This document shows, in pieces, positions 219-20,639 of a stretch of 40,003 nucleotides of DNA. Position 1 is the first letter of the stretch. Every line of letters starts with the position of its first letter. The DNA is from Acidobacteriota bacterium (GTDB lineage: Bacteria; Acidobacteriota; Terriglobia; Terriglobales; Acidobacteriaceae). The notes under the pieces were generated by a model. It was not told the DNA's origin. It ran no database searches and saw nothing but the letters and a program-made list of their open reading frames with translations. A program made the translations under genes and the position numbers. The DNA lies in NCBI GenBank assembly GCA_003225465.1, contig QIAH01000364.1, positions 1,169-41,171 of the forward strand, read 5' to 3'.

Positions 219-1607
219 ATGACGGACAAATTGTCACGAAGAGATTTTCTCGGAGTCTCCGCTCTGGGGTTCATGGCAGCGGCTTCGCCCAGCGTCATCC
301 GTCCGCCGATGGAAGTAAATGACTCGGGAGACCAATCGTCCAATCGTGACTCGGAAATTTCAATTTGGGTGACTTCTGGCGATGAGCGTTTCGCTGCTGC
401 TCCTCCCATCAGTTGGCGTGCTGCCTCTGGAGCAGCCCCAAGCGATCACCTCCAGTTGAGCCCCAGCGTAAAGTTTCAGAAGATCCTGGGATTTGGAGGC
501 GCCTTCACCGATGCTGCCTGTTATACGTTCAATCGGCTGACGCCAGGCCGCATCTGCGTAGGATCGAGCGACTACTCCGCCAAGCTCTACAGCTATGACG
601 AAGGCGAACCTGATCCCGATCTGACGCGCTTTTCGATCGACCACGACCGTGAATACATTCTTCCTATTCTCCGCCAGGCGCGCCAAATGAATCCCGATCT
701 TTTTCTTTTCTCATCCCCGTGGAGCCCACCGGGGTGGATGAAGTTCAACAATACGATGTTGGGCGCCTCCATGCGTAGACACTACCTGCCGGTTTACGCG
801 CGGTACTATCTGAAATTTCTGCAAGACTATTCCGCGGGAGGCGTGCCCGTTCAGGCACTGACAAGTCAAAACGAAGTCGACACCGACCAGGATGGCCGCA
901 TGCCGGCCTGCATCTGGTCCCAGGAATATGAGATTGAGTTTGTGCGCGACCATCTCGGCCCTCTCCTGGAAAGCAGTGGCATGCCAACCCAGATCTGGGT
1001 CCTGGATCACAACTACAACTTGTGGGGACGCGCAGTTTGCACGCTGGCCGACCCCAAGCTCCGCAAGTACACCAATACGGTTGCATGGCACGGCTATTAC
1101 GGCACTGCGGACATGATAAGCAAGGTCCACGACGCTTACCCCGAAGCCGAGATGCATTGGACCGAAGGCGGTCCGGACTATACCGATCCCGGTTATCTCA
1201 CGGACTGGTGCAAGTGGGCGGGAACCTTTAGCAGTGTATTGACGAATTGGTGCCGGTCCATCACAGCGTGGAATCTGGCTCTCGATGAACATGGGCGGCC
1301 GAACATCGGCCCCTTCCCCTGCGGCGGCGTAGTCACGATTGACTCCCAGTCTCGAAGCATTTCTCGCAGCGGGCAATACTGGGCCTTCGCTCACTATTCG
1401 CGGACCATCCGTCGCGGAGCGCAGCGCTTTCAGTCGCAAACAACTGCAGCCGACATTAAGCATGTCGCTGTCGAAAATCCCGATGGCCAAAAGGTGCTCA
1501 TCGTGACCAACCCCGGGCCATCCCGAGCGCTCGAGCTACGCGTCGCGAATGTGGCCGCATCCGTAGCCTTAAAGACAGACTCAGTGACCACCCTGGCGTG
1601 GCGCTGA
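219..1607 (+). CDS. Tat-exported glycoside hydrolase family 30 (glucosylceramidase-like)
   Basis: 462 aa. The N-terminus has a twin-arginine signal (SRRDFLGVSALGFMAAAS, residues 6-23), so the enzyme should be exported folded. GH30 hallmarks are present in order: ILGFGGAFTDAA near residues 88-99, the acid/base glutamate E219 in SQNEVD, WVLDHNYN near 267, and the nucleophile E316 in HWTEGG. The all-beta C-terminal end (residues 385-462) fits the GH30 side domain. GH30 enzymes are retaining beta-glycosidases acting on glucosyl-, xylosyl- or 1,6-glucan linkages; the exact substrate is not determinable here. The ATG has a GAGGAG ribosome-binding site 8 bases upstream. It follows an SMP-30 gene, which fits a sugar degradation unit. 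Confidence 0.9.
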   Translation: MTDKLSRRDFLGVSALGFMAAASPSVIRPPMEVNDSGDQSSNRDSEISIWVTSGDERFAAAPPISWRAASGAAPSDHLQLSPSVKFQKILGFGGAFTDAACYTFNRLTPGRICVGSSDYSAKLYSYDEGEPDPDLTRFSIDHDREYILPILRQARQMNPDLFLFSSPWSPPGWMKFNNTMLGASMRRHYLPVYARYYLKFLQDYSAGGVPVQALTSQNEVDTDQDGRMPACIWSQEYEIEFVRDHLGPLLESSGMPTQIWVLDHNYNLWGRAVCTLADPKLRKYTNTVAWHGYYGTADMISKVHDAYPEAEMHWTEGGPDYTDPGYLTDWCKWAGTFSSVLTNWCRSITAWNLALDEHGRPNIGPFPCGGVVTIDSQSRSISRSGQYWAFAHYSRTIRRGAQRFQSQTTAADIKHVAVENPDGQKVLIVTNPGPSRALELRVANVAASVALKTDSVTTLAWR

Positions 1608-5471: not shown

Positions 5472-6404
5472 TCACCTGGACGTCGTGCCCGCCAGTTCCT
5501 GCACTACGGCGCGTAAGTACCGCAAGCTGGCGGCAATGCTCTGCGCTGGCGGAATCGGCGTCGCGCCAAATTTCACATCCTGCTCGACCACCATCCAGCC
5601 TGCGTAATTGTTCCGCTCCAGCGTGCGAAAGAATGCGGGGAAATCGATAGAGCCATTCCCGATGATGGTAAACACCTTCTCTTCGATAGCCTGGTCAAAC
5701 GTGAGACGCTTCTTTCGCGCCTCCTGCAGAATCTTTTCATCACAATCCTTGATGTGCACCAGCCGCAAAATGCTTCGATACTTCTCGGCTTCCGCCACAG
5801 TATCGGCCCCACCGTAGACCGCGTGTCCCGTATCGAGGCACAATCCGATCCCGGTCTTTGCGGTCACATCGAAAAACCGCTCGCACTCTTTGGGAGTCTC
5901 CACGTAGGTCGCAACGTGAGGGTGAAACACCAGATCCAGGCCGAATTCAGAAGCGACTCGCGCGGCATCCTCGACCACTTTGGCTATGTTCTTCCATTGC
6001 GCATCATTAAGTCCCGCACTGCCATCGGCTGGCACACGCCCGGAGATTCGGTCGCGTTCTGGCGACTGCGCATCCGCCAGCACCAGAAACGGCGCTTTCA
6101 AAGTCGCCAACAGATTGCCAACCTTGTGGATCTGGTCGACCGCGACTTGCGCCGACGATGGATCACTCAACACCACCGGCACGAATGATCCAAGAAGCTT
6201 CAACTTTCGTTTCTCGAGTTGTGGCTTGAGCACTGCCGGATCGGTCGGAAAAAATCCGTAGGGCCCGAGCTCCGTGCCCGTGTAACCCGCCTCCACCATT
6301 TCATCCAGCATCTTCTCGTACGACTGGTTCCACGATGGCCCGGGATAATCGAGCACTCCCCAGCTATCCGGCGCCGCAGCAAACAAAAATCGTTCTGAAG
6401 TCAT
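5472..6404 (-). CDS. Sugar phosphate isomerase/epimerase, IolE-like TIM barrel
   Basis: 310 aa, xylose-isomerase-like TIM barrel (AP endonuclease 2 family). The N-terminus RFLFAAAPDSWGVLDYPGP resembles inosose dehydratases (IolE). Metal-ligand positions fit the fold: E in GTELGPYGFF, D/H in CLDTGHAVYGG, H in LVHIKDCD, and E in WMVVEQDVKFG near the C-terminus. Such enzymes dehydrate, isomerise or epimerise sugars or inositol derivatives in the cytosol. The ATG at 6404 has GAGG five bases upstream. It follows the TonB receptor gene on the same strand after a hairpin, so it may be read as part of a glycan or polyol use block. Confidence 0.85.
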   Translation of the reverse strand: MTSERFLFAAAPDSWGVLDYPGPSWNQSYEKMLDEMVEAGYTGTELGPYGFFPTDPAVLKPQLEKRKLKLLGSFVPVVLSDPSSAQVAVDQIHKVGNLLATLKAPFLVLADAQSPERDRISGRVPADGSAGLNDAQWKNIAKVVEDAARVASEFGLDLVFHPHVATYVETPKECERFFDVTAKTGIGLCLDTGHAVYGGADTVAEAEKYRSILRLVHIKDCDEKILQEARKKRLTFDQAIEEKVFTIIGNGSIDFPAFFRTLERNNYAGWMVVEQDVKFGATPIPPAQSIAASLRYLRAVVQELAGTTSR

Positions 6405-15727: not shown

Positions 15728-17203
15728 TTGACTTGCATCGGGCGCCGCAGCCTAGACTCGCAGACCATTGGCCTTCTGCTTGGGCTACTACACTTCAGAT
15801 CACAGCCCGGAGGCAGCACGGCACACTTCACGGCTACAACCATCCTTGAACCGATCCGCACCAAAGGACATCTGCTACGCATTGTGGGCGTCGGTTTTGG
15901 GCTTGCTGTGGGCATTGGGGGCACAATCGGCGCGGGCATCCTACGCACGCCCGGTGAAGTCGCAGCTCAACTCCGAAGTCCATGGCTCGTCGTCGCGGTT
16001 TGGGTCTTGGGCGGGGTTTACGTGTTTTTCTGCACCGCTTCTGTGACTGAGCTTGCCACGATGCTTCCGCAAGAGGGTGGATGGTACGTATATTCCCGTA
16101 AAGCCTTTGGCGAGTATGCCGGTTTTGTGGTGGGCTGCTGCGATTGGATGATGCAAACGGCGGCTATTGCATATTTGGCCGTCGCATTCGGCGAATTCGC
16201 AGCCGGACTTCAGCCTGGTCTGGGACCACACACCAAGCTGGTTGCCGTAGCGGCCGTGGTTATTCTGACATTTCTGAACTGGCTCGGCTTGCGCGCTGGC
16301 AGCCGGGCGCAGGAATTTACCAGTCTGGTCAAAGCACTCGCCCTGATCGCATTTGTGGGGGCATGTTTCGTGGTCTCGCCGAGAAGTGGAGCAGCCGATC
16401 CGTCCGCGTTCATCAGCTTCCCGGCATCGAGCGGAAACATTCTCCTGGCTCTGGTGGTTGCGTTGCAGGCTGTCATCGTGACTTACGACGGCTGGTACAG
16501 CGCGATCTACTTCATGGAGGAGGACCGGGACCCGGCGAGAAACCTGCCGCGCTCGGCAATCGGCGGGGTCGTGGCTTGCATCGTAATCTACCTGCTAGTG
16601 AACGCAGCCTTGCTCCACGTCCTACCGATGGCTCAAATGGCTGCTGCCCAAATGCCAGCCGCGGACGCCGCGATGATGGTTTTCGGCAGCCACGGCAAAC
16701 GAATTATTCTCGTCATTTCTCTGGTCACGGTGATTAGCACGATCAACGCTTTGCTCTTGATTTCTCCACGAATTCTTTTTGCCATGGGCCGGGATGGGTT
16801 ACTTCCCCGCCGGATGGCGTCGGTCAATTCGGGAGGCACTCCATCGGTGGCCCTTCTAATCGGCGCGCTCGCAATTGTTGCGCTGGTTCTTAGCGGGAGT
16901 TTTGAGACACTGATCGCGATTTCCTCTTTTCTGGTCGTGTCCGTCTACATATCGGGATTCGCTGCCTTGTTCAGGCTGAGGGCGCAGCGGCCGGAGCTTA
17001 CACGGCCCTTCAAAATGTGGGGCTATCCCTGGACGACCTTGGGAGTGCTGCTGGCGTCCCTTGGATTTCTGATGGCATCCGTGATCGGCGATATCAAGCA
17101 CAGCTTGTTTACACTGGTCTTGATCGCGATCAGCTACCCGGTGTATTTGTTGGCGGTAAAGAAGAGGGCTGCCCACAGTTCGGACCCGACATCCCCATCC
17201 TGA
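15728..17203 (+). CDS. APC superfamily amino acid permease (start uncertain, 3' end replaced)
   Basis: Up to 491 aa with about 12 helices. Family signatures: GFGLAVGIGGTIGAGILRTP in helix 1, LATMLPQEGGWYVYSRKAFG in the helix 2-3 loop, and AMGRDGLLPRRMASVN plus TRPFKMWGYPW in the C-terminal half. It belongs to the LAT/APC amino acid branch. The frame begins at a TTG (15728); the first 45 residues are weak and the true start may be later, near 15840-15880. The last codons (AAHSSDPTSPS) lie out of frame over a kinase C-terminal remnant, so the native C-terminus seems to have been replaced near 17180. All helices precede this point, so the protein may work. Confidence 0.8.
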   Translation: MTCIGRRSLDSQTIGLLLGLLHFRSQPGGSTAHFTATTILEPIRTKGHLLRIVGVGFGLAVGIGGTIGAGILRTPGEVAAQLRSPWLVVAVWVLGGVYVFFCTASVTELATMLPQEGGWYVYSRKAFGEYAGFVVGCCDWMMQTAAIAYLAVAFGEFAAGLQPGLGPHTKLVAVAAVVILTFLNWLGLRAGSRAQEFTSLVKALALIAFVGACFVVSPRSGAADPSAFISFPASSGNILLALVVALQAVIVTYDGWYSAIYFMEEDRDPARNLPRSAIGGVVACIVIYLLVNAALLHVLPMAQMAAAQMPAADAAMMVFGSHGKRIILVISLVTVISTINALLLISPRILFAMGRDGLLPRRMASVNSGGTPSVALLIGALAIVALVLSGSFETLIAISSFLVVSVYISGFAALFRLRAQRPELTRPFKMWGYPWTTLGVLLASLGFLMASVIGDIKHSLFTLVLIAISYPVYLLAVKKRAAHSSDPTSPS

Positions 17204-17238
17204 AAGAAGCGAAAGCGGAGTACGCGAAGTTGCAGTAG
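17182..17238 (+). pseudogene. Acidobacterial TPR kinase, C-terminal remnant (copy 2)
   Basis: In this frame [17 protein letters not shown]-stop is readable, the same ending as the remnant at 13515-13688. It overlaps, in another frame, the last codons of the permease. Confidence 0.65.
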
Positions 17239-17336
17239 TCATCGTGGCCAGTCTTCTTCAGGCCTCTTTCGCCTCCTTGAAATTCCTAACTGTTGTAACC
17301 AGGGATATTTCAACAGCAACAGATGGGATGAGAAGA

Positions 17337-17409
17337 CCGGTCTCCGACGGGATGCTGTACGCTCCCAAGTTATCGACGCGCTTGAAGCGCAAGAGATAAA
17401 GGAGACCGG
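17337..17409 (+). promoter_or_regulatory. Long-range stem covering the transposase ribosome-binding site
   Basis: CCGGTCTCC (17337-17345) pairs perfectly with GGAGACCGG (17401-17409). GGAG (17401-17404) is the transposase Shine-Dalgarno, so folding would hide it. An inner GCGC-TTGAA-GCGC hairpin lies at about 17378-17390. The left arm overlaps the left subterminal repeat. The pairing could limit transposase translation. Confidence 0.5.
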
Positions 17410-17411
17410 CA

Positions 17412-18515
17412 ATGAAGAAGGTTAGCACTGCTGCGGTAAAGGCGACGAAGAATTTTTCTCAACCGAAGCTGACCATTGGTTTGGACCTGGGCGATCGATC
17501 AAGTTGGTATTGCCTGCTAGACGAAGTGGGAGAAGTGCTGCAGGAACAGAAACTGGGCACGACTCCGAAAGCGATGCGAGAAGTGTTCGGAAGCATGCCG
17601 CGTTGCCGCATCGCGTTGGAAACGGGAACGCACTCGCCCTGGGTGAGTCGACTGCTGAGCGAGTTGGGACATGAAGTGATCGTGGCGCATGCCCGCAATG
17701 TGCGTTTGATCGGGGAGAGCCGGAAGAAGGACGATCGGCTGGATGCGCGGACGCTGGCGCGGTTGGCGCGAATCGATCCGCAGTTGTTGTGTCCGGTAAA
17801 ACATCGCAGCGCGAAAGCGCAGGCGGATCTGACGGTGATCCGGGCGCGAGCCGGGTTGGTGCGAGCGCGGACGGCGCTGGTGAACACGGCGCGTGGGCTG
17901 GCCAAGTCGTCTGGCGAGCGGCTGCGGGGATGCAATGTGCGCAATATCAATCCGGAGAAAGCGGAAGGGCTGAGCCCGGAGTTGCAAGCGGCGCTGCAGC
18001 CGTTGCTGGCGGGAATCGAGTCGCTGAGCGAACGCATCCGCGAGTGCAACGAAGGGATCGAAAAGCTGGCGCAGGAAAGTTATCCGCAGGTGGCGCTGCT
18101 GAAGCAGATCAAAGGAGTGGGCACGTTGATCGGGCTTACTTACATGCTGACGTTGGAGGACGCGCATCGTTTTCGCAAGAGCCGCGACGTGGGCTGCTAC
18201 CTGGGATTGCAGCCAGGACGGAGAAACTCGGGGCAGAGCGAACCGCAGATGCACATCAGCAAGGAAGGGGATCCGTATCTGCGCACGCTGCTGGTGCAGG
18301 GAGCGCACCACATTCTGGGTCCCTTTGGAGCGGACAGTGACCTGCGGCGTTGGGGGCTGAAGCTGGCCGAGCGTGGCGGGAAGAATGGGAAGAAACGAGC
18401 GGTGATTGCGACAGCGCGAAAGCTGGCGGTGTTGCTGCATCGCTTGTGGGTAAGTGGAGAAGTGTACGAACCGTTGCGCAACAGCCACCGGATCGCGCTG
18501 CCGGCGGCAGCATAA
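17412..18515 (+). CDS. IS110-family DEDD transposase
   Basis: 367 aa. The N-terminal RuvC-like DEDD domain shows D25 (IGLDLGDRSS), E70 (ALETGTHS), and D108 and D111 (KKDDRLDARTLARL). A coiled region and the C-terminal Transposase_20 domain follow: LLKQIKGVGTLIGLTYMLTL, YLGLQPGRRNSGQ, and HISKEGDPYLRTLL, which carries the candidate catalytic serine. These recombinases act with a structured bridge RNA encoded in a non-coding end of the element. The frame is intact and full length, so the element may be active. GGAG is 7 bases upstream of the ATG. Confidence 0.93.
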   Translation: MKKVSTAAVKATKNFSQPKLTIGLDLGDRSSWYCLLDEVGEVLQEQKLGTTPKAMREVFGSMPRCRIALETGTHSPWVSRLLSELGHEVIVAHARNVRLIGESRKKDDRLDARTLARLARIDPQLLCPVKHRSAKAQADLTVIRARAGLVRARTALVNTARGLAKSSGERLRGCNVRNINPEKAEGLSPELQAALQPLLAGIESLSERIRECNEGIEKLAQESYPQVALLKQIKGVGTLIGLTYMLTLEDAHRFRKSRDVGCYLGLQPGRRNSGQSEPQMHISKEGDPYLRTLLVQGAHHILGPFGADSDLRRWGLKLAERGGKNGKKRAVIATARKLAVLLHRLWVSGEVYEPLRNSHRIALPAAA

Positions 18516-18797
18516 AGTCAAAATCTTCTGAGGAAGAAAAGACAAGAGCCCAAAGCCGAGTTCCGGTGACTGCGTTAATGGCCTGGCCCGACTTCCATCG
18601 TAGATGGAAATCAAGGTCGACTAACAGGTGGCAGCACCGACTGAAACGAGAACACCCAACTTGCACCGAGCGAACCAAAAATCGCTCATCAAAGAGTGCG
18701 GATGGAAGGGTGGCGACAGTGGCGACTGGGGCCAGGGAAAAAACCTTGTCCAACGAAAAAACGAAAGAATCCACTTGACTCCGACCGGCCTTCTCAT
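18516..18797 (+). ncRNA. Candidate bridge RNA region in the IS right end
   Basis: 282 bases between the transposase stop and the right repeat carry no plausible gene. Local hairpins are visible: TTCCATC-GTA-GATGGAA (18593-18609) and, overlapping the right repeat, GGCCTTC-TCATG-GAAGGCC (18787-18805). IS1111-type elements are reported to encode their bridge RNA downstream of the transposase. The existence and limits of an RNA here are inference. Confidence 0.4.
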
Positions 18798-18902
18798 GGA
18801 AGGCCATTACACTCAGAACCTGACTCGGTCTTGCAGTGTAGGCGCAATCCTTAGCACGGTGAGCTGGGCGATGCCACGGCACGGAGTTCGTCGTGGGTGT
18901 AC

Positions 18903-20639
18903 TTAGTGCGACGTTTGCGAAAAGGGAACGACACGCGCCTGATGTGCGGTAAGTGCCCCCAGCGCCACCTGCGCGTCGGAATTTTGCTTGGATGCAGCCT
19001 TCTTCAGCCACTGTACCGCTTCATCTTCATCGACCGCTACCCCGTCACCATCGCGATAGCGCAGTCCGAGATTATATTGAGCCGCGGCATTGTCTTCACC
19101 AGCCGCTCTCGCGACCCATTGGGCAGCGGTTGTGCACCGTTGTGGGACCCCACGTCCGATCTCGTACGCCATTCCCATTTGGAATGCTGCAGAATCATCC
19201 CCATATTCCGCCCGGCGACGTAGTCCCGCCATCTCGTAGTAGCTTAGGATCCGTACAGCAGCTTCGGTTGCGCGATCGGTTATATGTAGGTGGCTCACCT
19301 GTATCGCAGCAGACATCGCGAAAGGCTCGGTCCCAGGTGTGTCCCGAGTGTCCGACTTCGCGGCGCTGAGCGTGTTCTCTCGCGTGTTTGTTCGCGAACT
19401 GAACACTGGTGTCTGCGCAGGAAGGTGGAGGCCCGTCTTCGGTATCAGGAACGTGATTACGATTGCCAGTATTGCCATTACGGGAGTCACTTTGAGGAAG
19501 GCACCCAGACTCGACCCGGGGTAGAGAAGCTTTTGAAATCTTGTAGCGGTGATCTTGACAGCGTGCAGAATCGAATTCTGGTCGTGGCGGGGACTTCCCG
19601 GAGCAACCATTGTCAGACCGGTGCGCGAGGCGCAGTTGCTCACCAAAGCGACCGTGCTCTGCCATTTCTGGCAAACGAGTGGCCAGACAGTTGACGTCTC
19701 CGCGACCTTGCTCTTCAACGCCCCCCACACCCCGACCCGGGGTACGCTTGTTTTCTGGAGCACGGACGAAGACAACAAATTCTCAAGCGGCGGCTCCTGA
19801 TCAAGTCCAGTTCGGGTTCTCCCCATCGCTTCCGTGGTACCAGTTTCCTGGTTCGATCGGTGCGACTCTGGGAACTGTGTCGTATCGATGCCTGCGCTGG
19901 GACGCTCATAGCAAGGTTCACGCTGTAAAAATCGATGGGTCGAGTGTCGCGCACCCACATCGCTCTCTAACATCCTTTGCAAGGCCGGAATGATTCGCTC
20001 GATCAACTGCAGCATGGCTGCAGGGTTTAGGGCGATGCTCTCTTGCAGTCCCGCATCCGCAGCTTTAGAGAGCGCTTGGCCTAGCAAATCGGCAAGCGCG
20101 TGGAGATTGGTGACATCTCGCTCGGTGAAAGCATTGCACTCATTAGAGAGTACAGCTAGCGCTCCCGCAACGTTAGGTCCCTGGTGGATCGGCTCGACGA
20201 GCAAAGAGTTCCTATCGCCAGAATTGCTTGCGTCGTAACCCGTAGCGATTGCGGGTTGGTTTAAGAGTCGAGAAGCCGAATCCTGGGTGAGCTTGCAAAC
20301 GTCCCTTAGTTTCGAAACCACCTCAAGCCGCAAGCGCTCGTCGTTGGATGCGGTTCCTACCCCCGCGTACAAGAAGACTTCGTCGGCGATGAACAACCAC
20401 ACCCCCGTGCCGTCGGCGCCAACGACTCCCTGGATTAGCCTCGTCAGCCGGTTAATAAGCGTATTCAGGTCGAACCTGCCACCCTTGACTTCCTGCCTGA
20501 TCTGGGTGAGGCCCGACAGCCACTGCAGGTCAATCCGATGATCCACGCTTCCGCGCAATCCTGGCATTTGTATCTGCTGGAACAGGAAGGACAGGAACTG
20601 CTTAAAGGATCGGCGATCGGGGGATAATCGCTCGCTCAT
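18903..20639 (-). CDS. GAF domain - transmembrane - Sel1 repeat protein
   Basis: 578 aa with three parts. Residues about 58-195 form a GAF sensor domain (VGADGTGVWLFIADEVFLYAG, NSLLVEPIHQGPNVAGALAV, FTERDVTNLHALADLLGQAL). Residues 200-380 are poorly structured and polar. A single membrane helix follows (VTPVMAILAIVITFLIP, 384-400), then two or three Sel1 repeats (AAFQMGMAYEIGRGVPQ, AQYNLGLRYRDGDGVAVDED, 484-560). Topology predicts a cytosolic ligand sensor and an extracytoplasmic Sel1 scaffold. No kinase or output domain is present. ATG at 20639 has AAGGA 10 bases upstream. I know no named family with this order; the role is probably signal-linked protein assembly. Confidence 0.72.
   Translation of the reverse strand: MSERLSPDRRSFKQFLSFLFQQIQMPGLRGSVDHRIDLQWLSGLTQIRQEVKGGRFDLNTLINRLTRLIQGVVGADGTGVWLFIADEVFLYAGVGTASNDERLRLEVVSKLRDVCKLTQDSASRLLNQPAIATGYDASNSGDRNSLLVEPIHQGPNVAGALAVLSNECNAFTERDVTNLHALADLLGQALSKAADAGLQESIALNPAAMLQLIERIIPALQRMLESDVGARHSTHRFLQREPCYERPSAGIDTTQFPESHRSNQETGTTEAMGRTRTGLDQEPPLENLLSSSVLQKTSVPRVGVWGALKSKVAETSTVWPLVCQKWQSTVALVSNCASRTGLTMVAPGSPRHDQNSILHAVKITATRFQKLLYPGSSLGAFLKVTPVMAILAIVITFLIPKTGLHLPAQTPVFSSRTNTRENTLSAAKSDTRDTPGTEPFAMSAAIQVSHLHITDRATEAAVRILSYYEMAGLRRRAEYGDDSAAFQMGMAYEIGRGVPQRCTTAAQWVARAAGEDNAAAQYNLGLRYRDGDGVAVDEDEAVQWLKKAASKQNSDAQVALGALTAHQARVVPFSQTSH

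Follow-up and report, generated by a model that had tools for sequence, protein, structure and literature searches.

The locus studied here lies in a window of 40,003 nucleotides (the whole stretch of acidobacterial DNA analysed) and raises the question of whether an IS110-family insertion sequence carries, downstream of its recombinase gene, an RNA that selects the insertion site, as an earlier note on this DNA had claimed. Together, our results support the reading that the right end of the element encodes a bridge RNA, or seekRNA. We put at roughly 94% the probability that this is an autonomous IS1111-type element whose right-end RNA guides the recombinase to its target, with insertion at an AG dinucleotide in one arm of a REP-like palindrome.

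The element at 17321-18800 (1480 bp, plus strand, as are all features of the window described below) is a complete, intact IS1111-type member of the IS110 family. Its boundaries were set by comparing relatives at unrelated sites in many acidobacterial genomes. The sequence that these have in common begins on the left with AGATGGG and ends on the right with GGA, and the outer flanks diverge. Thus, the element starts 7 bp and ends 3 bp outside a pair of subterminal inverted repeats, ATGAGAAGACCGGTC (17328-17342) and GACCGGCCTTCTCAT (18783-18797). The left terminal extension, AGATGGG, occupies 17321-17327, its first AG being the core dinucleotide also present in the target, and the right terminal extension, GGA, occupies 18798-18800. 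Extensions of 7 bp on the left and 3 bp on the right are the published rule for IS1111 (PMC11187229), and the repeats fall within the 7-17 bp range of that group. The two repeats are complementary at 14 of 15 positions, with one mismatch, and when the non-coding ends were shuffled (n = 60) the best 15-mer reached at most 13. Non-coding sequence amounts to 91 bases upstream of the recombinase and 285 downstream, close to the lengths (about 90 and 282) that the earlier note had taken for an IS1111 layout, and the longer downstream region is a trait of the IS1111 group. The IS110 group proper (IS621-like) differs in having its guide RNA in the left end and no long subterminal repeats. The features of the window element are those of a regular IS1111-type member; the class was described in 2024, and the example from soil acidobacteria is new.

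The gene at 17412-18515 encodes, from an ATG start, a DEDD recombinase of 367 amino acids. Its Pfam matches were DEDD_Tnp_IS110 and Transposase_20, and its NCBIfam match, "IS110 family RNA-guided transposase", was far over the cut-off. The catalytic residues D25, E70, D108, D111 and S273-G274 are unchanged across 18 aligned sequences. Also invariant among these is the motif G265-L266-x-P268-xxxx-S273-G274 (GLQPGRRNSG in the window), which has the GL-P----S(t)G form of the IS1111 group. The predicted structure has a mean pLDDT of 79. The closest solved structures are the bridge recombinases IS621 and ISCro4 (Z about 22 over 282 residues), with TIGR-TasR next at 15.9. Complementarity, reading frame and catalytic residues thus confirm that the 14/15 inverted repeat flanks an intact DEDD/Ser recombinase.

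The stretch 18555-18719 in the right end is conserved in 43 relatives, more strongly than the sequence 3′ of 18719, and we take its limits as those of the conserved core of the putative bridge RNA. A covariance model was built from 35 relatives, leaving out the window and its closest relatives. Searched with this model, the window gave a match at 18555-18719 (178.8 bits, E 1.9e-44) and none in the left end. The next best match, at 6051-6113 (13.2 bits), was regarded as chance. Pairing in the stems of the RNA is kept at 98%, and the observed covariation scored above all 500 shuffles; few pairs vary, three of them with double changes. Folded as a single sequence the RNA is only mildly stable (z −1.2). 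An Rfam search gave no match at gathering thresholds, with noise alone at E up to 5. Of 100 genomes sampled from the family, 25 have the RNA.

The predicted structure consists of a long stem with an inner loop beneath a variable hairpin cap, plus a second stem-loop, and the two or more hairpins proposed for the right end are thus confirmed as predictions. The long stem corresponds to a target-binding stem-loop at 18564-18639, in which CGGTG (18564-18568) pairs with CACCG (18635-18639) and CTGC (18570-18573) with GCAG (18631-18634), and the guides occupy the two sides of its inner loop. The hairpin at its apex (18590-18619) separates guide 1 from guide 2; it folds in most relatives, its structure being kept though its sequence differs.

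Guide 1, TAATGGCCT (18576-18584), is complementary at 9 of 9 positions to the right flank AGGCCATTA (18801-18809). Across relatives, 263 of 297 guide 1 positions match the flank, compared with 206 ± 6.6 after shuffling, a score that none of 20,000 shuffles reached; counting only the 24 distinct guide-flank pairs, again 0 of 20,000 did so. When all 9-column windows were scanned blind, in both senses, guide 1 came out on top (z 8.3, runner-up 4.4). Its covariation spans +1 to +9 and ends at +10. The relatives' segments AGGCGTTTA, AGGCGTTAG, AGGCGATAG, AGGCCAATG, AGGACTTGG and AGGCCATAG each match at 9 of 9 positions in at least one copy. To allow for the non-independence of related copies, each copy was also compared with its nearest relative bearing a different guide; its own guide fitted better in 27 cases, worse in 4 and equally well in 2.

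Guide 2 (18621-18627) reads CTAAC followed by the core AG, in the same sense as the left flank plus core. It tops its own blind scan (z 5.3), and positions −5 to −2 covary with the left flank. In the window itself only AAC and the following AG match, that is, 3 of 5 positions plus the core. Guides 1 and 2 lie on opposite sides of one internal loop. Their order, with the complement of the top strand first, is the IS1111 rule (PMC11187229), and here both sequence and covariation agree with it. The earlier proposal that aligned copies would reveal variable guide loops matching the flanks is borne out for both guides, and the bridge RNA that it placed downstream of the recombinase is sustained by conservation, by the covariance-model match and by guides that covary with both flanks. 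Neither an RNA signal in the left end alone nor a lack of flank complementarity, which the note had weighed against its own claim, was observed; signal and complementarity were both found in the right end.

The guide rule was further examined outside the training set, in distant relatives that were recruited by the RNA model and have different targets. Guide 1 matched the flank at 9 of 9 positions in one of these (L133), at 8 of 9 in five (L115, L134, L135, L137 and L139) and at 5 of 9 in L136. Guide 2 of L135, CACCTC followed by AG, is identical to the left flank, and that of L115 differs by one base (CTCATT-AG versus CTCACT-AG). Three relatives, L136, L090 and L057, fit the rule poorly. Distant relatives with quite different targets thus mostly follow the same guide rule. 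Since they do so while the AG core is the sole constant part of their targets, the clade has been naturally reprogrammed many times. The guide mechanism itself we infer from this covariation. One distant relative, L134, has the guide-RNA segment twice (700-1070, minus strand); the two copies are 71% identical over 131 nt, have a spacing of 233 bases and differ slightly in guide 1.

The second stem-loop (18653-18713) has the layout expected of a donor-binding loop and is a candidate for that role. Its segment CCCAACTT (18655-18662) is complementary at 7 of 8 positions to AAGATGGG of the joined ends, and ATGGAAG (18702-18708) is the same at 7 of 7 positions as the ATGGA-AG that spans them, the predicted circular junction being CTTCTCATGGA joined to AGATGGGATGAG. 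The donor sequence and element ends are nearly invariant among relatives, too conserved for a covariation test. Additionally, TTGACT at 18775-18780 would probably supply the −35 box of a junction promoter once the ends join; relatives have a conserved TTGAC at their right ends.

The target of the window copy reads CAGCAAC before the insertion point and AGGCCATTACAC after it, with GCAAC (17316-17320) as its left half and the nine bases complementary to guide 1, which begin with the AG core, as its right half. Both the left end and the right flank begin with AG, and this dinucleotide would be the natural exchange core. The core of IS621, by comparison, is CT rather than AG. In most close relatives the left flanks end in AAnC and the right flanks start with AGGC, in the same orientation, and the commonest target is TGTTGTAAnC followed by AGGCGATTACACTCATTGACC. 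No duplicated bases past the AG are common to the flanks; absence of duplication and a single orientation are traits of the IS1111 group.

The insertion point of the element appears to lie within one arm of a REP-like palindrome. With up to 3 mismatches allowed, the window's genome has 10 occurrences of the mirrored arm TGAGTGnAATCGGGATTTTnCAACA and 0 of a reversed control, and unoccupied sites such as CAACTGTCGCAAGC followed by AGGCGATTTCGCTCATTGACC are present there. A search of this genome for the palindromic target core gave 3 loose matches, weaker than the one-arm searches. Hairpins in the right flank are significant in a minority of copies (9 of 41 with z < −2) and mostly not significant, so that support for the REP-like reading comes chiefly from the target sequence, which is repeated and resembles a palindrome. 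A REP sequence is also the target of ISPa11 (PMC11187229), and insertion in a REP-like palindrome has also been reported for IS621. Within the genus (two genomes), a search for the window's own site in unoccupied form found none, the other genome being without a match. Just upstream of the element, about 54 bases (17185-17239) recur at several places in the genome with 81-91% identity, and a similar stretch adjoins the insertion site of another copy, L051. The same insertion site as in the window also occurs a second time in the assembly (L007 and L008, compared with 17200-17375 and 18784-18919; flanks 96-99% identical). The L007 and L008 contigs end inside the element and have a different version of the left end; this second site may represent a second strain or a repeat.

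The left end is also structured, and here the expectation of an RNA signal in the right end has to be amended: the guide RNA does lie on the right, but the left end has a structure of its own. The 91-base leader looks like an RNA that buries the Shine-Dalgarno sequence of the recombinase gene. It is predicted to form a three-way junction (17336-17410) from P1 (17336-17345/17401-17410), P2 (17349-17366) and P3 (17370-17399). In P1, a portion of the left inverted repeat base-pairs with a segment that contains most of the Shine-Dalgarno AGGAG (17400-17404, 7 nt before the ATG at 17412), G17401-G17404 being paired; the outermost P1 pair, 17336/17410, is A-C in the window. The fold has a z of −3.8 in the window, and the mean z for 58 left ends is −3.6. 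An alignment of 35 leaders has 92.8% of its cells paired, with slid versions far below, and 11 pairs show changes on both sides. The leader of a distant clade has GGTCGATC/GATCGACC instead of GGCCGGTC/GACCGGC. A strict leader-hairpin pattern matched once across 247 genomes of the phylum, and thus this precise sequence of the hairpin is rare, although relatives may share its structure. ISEc11 has a similar hairpin, CGGGATGCATAAAGCTCCC, which we treat as a lead alone because part of it repeats that element's own terminal repeat. Insertion sequences commonly mask the ribosome site as a guard against read-through transcription; a limited literature search found no report of such a leader RNA for IS1111. 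Tentatively, and at slightly less than even odds, we propose that each element has two structured RNAs with a function, one the bridge RNA of the right end and the other a leader that masks the Shine-Dalgarno sequence. The leader would restrain translation of the recombinase, and either the recombinase itself or processing could open it as a form of feedback control.

Might the leader instead be the guide RNA, placed in the left end as in IS110 elements? Its strong, covarying fold would fit such a role, but it encloses the Shine-Dalgarno sequence and stops at the start codon, the right-end model has no match in it, and the right end, the region scanned against the flanks, is where flank-covarying guides were detected. 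We consider this the least probable reading of all. Very improbable, too, is that the right end is conserved mainly as a DNA feature and encodes no guide RNA, reflecting recombinase binding sites or repeated insertion into the same repeat. Many relatives have an almost identical target, and similarity between right end and flank could be co-inherited among them. Against this stand the 27:4 result of the nearest-relative comparison and the matches also seen in relatives with unrelated targets. Furthermore, the signal is limited to two short segments at a fixed loop position, and the apex hairpin varies in sequence yet retains its structure.

A guide RNA in the right end could also belong to a copy that no longer moves. 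That the window copy is a decayed, immobile remnant of this element type is unlikely, although its left flank departs from the commonest target and its inverted repeat has one mismatch. The open reading frame is intact with all catalytic residues, the ends are intact, the RNA scores like those of relatives, and guide 1 is perfect against its own flank. The same genome also has other copies or fragments, several of them at contig ends.

For an autonomous, RNA-guided element, the anatomy, boundaries, RNA conservation, guide-flank covariation and predicted loop position observed here suggest the following mechanism. The recombinase, with its RuvC-like DEDD domain and Ser domain, would bind RNA from the right non-coding end, expressed as in characterised relatives. 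On the right of the insertion point, the 5′ guide would pair with the top strand of the target over 9 nt; the 3′ guide would pair with the bottom strand over the AG core and about 5 nt to its left. The second stem-loop would probably read the joined ends of an excised circle; donor pairing and the circular intermediate are modelled on relatives, as is the chemistry of strand exchange. Recombination at the AG common to left end and target would thus give precise insertion in one orientation, without target duplication, in an arm of the REP-like palindrome.

The IS1111-group seekRNA elements ISEc11, ISKpn4 and ISPa11 (PMC11187229) share with the window element the 7 and 3 bp extensions, subterminal inverted repeats, a downstream non-coding RNA, a DEDD recombinase with GLxPxxxxSG, the lack of target duplication and a top-strand guide 5′ of the bottom-strand guide. 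In contrast, the window recombinase is slightly longer (367 versus 330-350 amino acids) and only about 27% identical to that of ISEc11, and the element has acidobacterial relatives, a different target and a conserved left leader. Some of these relatives have two RNA copies or an additional segment of about 150 bp with an inverted repeat. IS621 and ISCro4 of the IS110 group (PMC11208160; PDB 8wt6, 9t56) are alike in recombinase fold and in a target loop that reads both strands around a core dinucleotide, whereas the window element has its RNA in the right end (theirs is in the left), long subterminal repeats and the reverse guide order. TIGR-TasR/TasH have a related fold and RNA-guided DNA targeting but belong to no transposable element, use a tandem guide array and lack subterminal repeats.

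These results extend bridge-RNA elements to a large acidobacterial clade and provide an evolutionary readout of the programmable positions, 9 nt on the right and about 5 nt on the left with AG fixed. The value of the clade lies in an unusually clear natural record of guide reprogramming, together with the leader RNA. Natural reprogramming to many targets is useful for choosing new recombinases in genome engineering, and the left leader suggests an added, directly testable layer of control.

Several related copies differ from the window element in structure. The extra segment of about 150 bp lies between guide RNA and right end in nine copies (L022, L028, L043, L052, L057, L060, L063, L084 and L087) and forms a strong inverted repeat of the CGTCAAGG...CCTTGACG type; the window is without it. 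Two copies (L042 and L056) have TTTTCGAGGGAGAAGG instead of AGATGGGATGAGAAGG at the left end, and L084 has the reverse complement of TTTTCGAGGGAGAAGG at its right end, which may be an alternative terminal sequence or a recombination product. A limited literature search on MITEs of IS110 elements found no direct precedent. Two deletion derivatives, L030 (1499-1637, about 138 bp) and L029 (1419-1800, minus strand, about 380 bp), have lost most of the gene and RNA but keep both ends and the left leader; they are MITE-like and possibly moved in trans.
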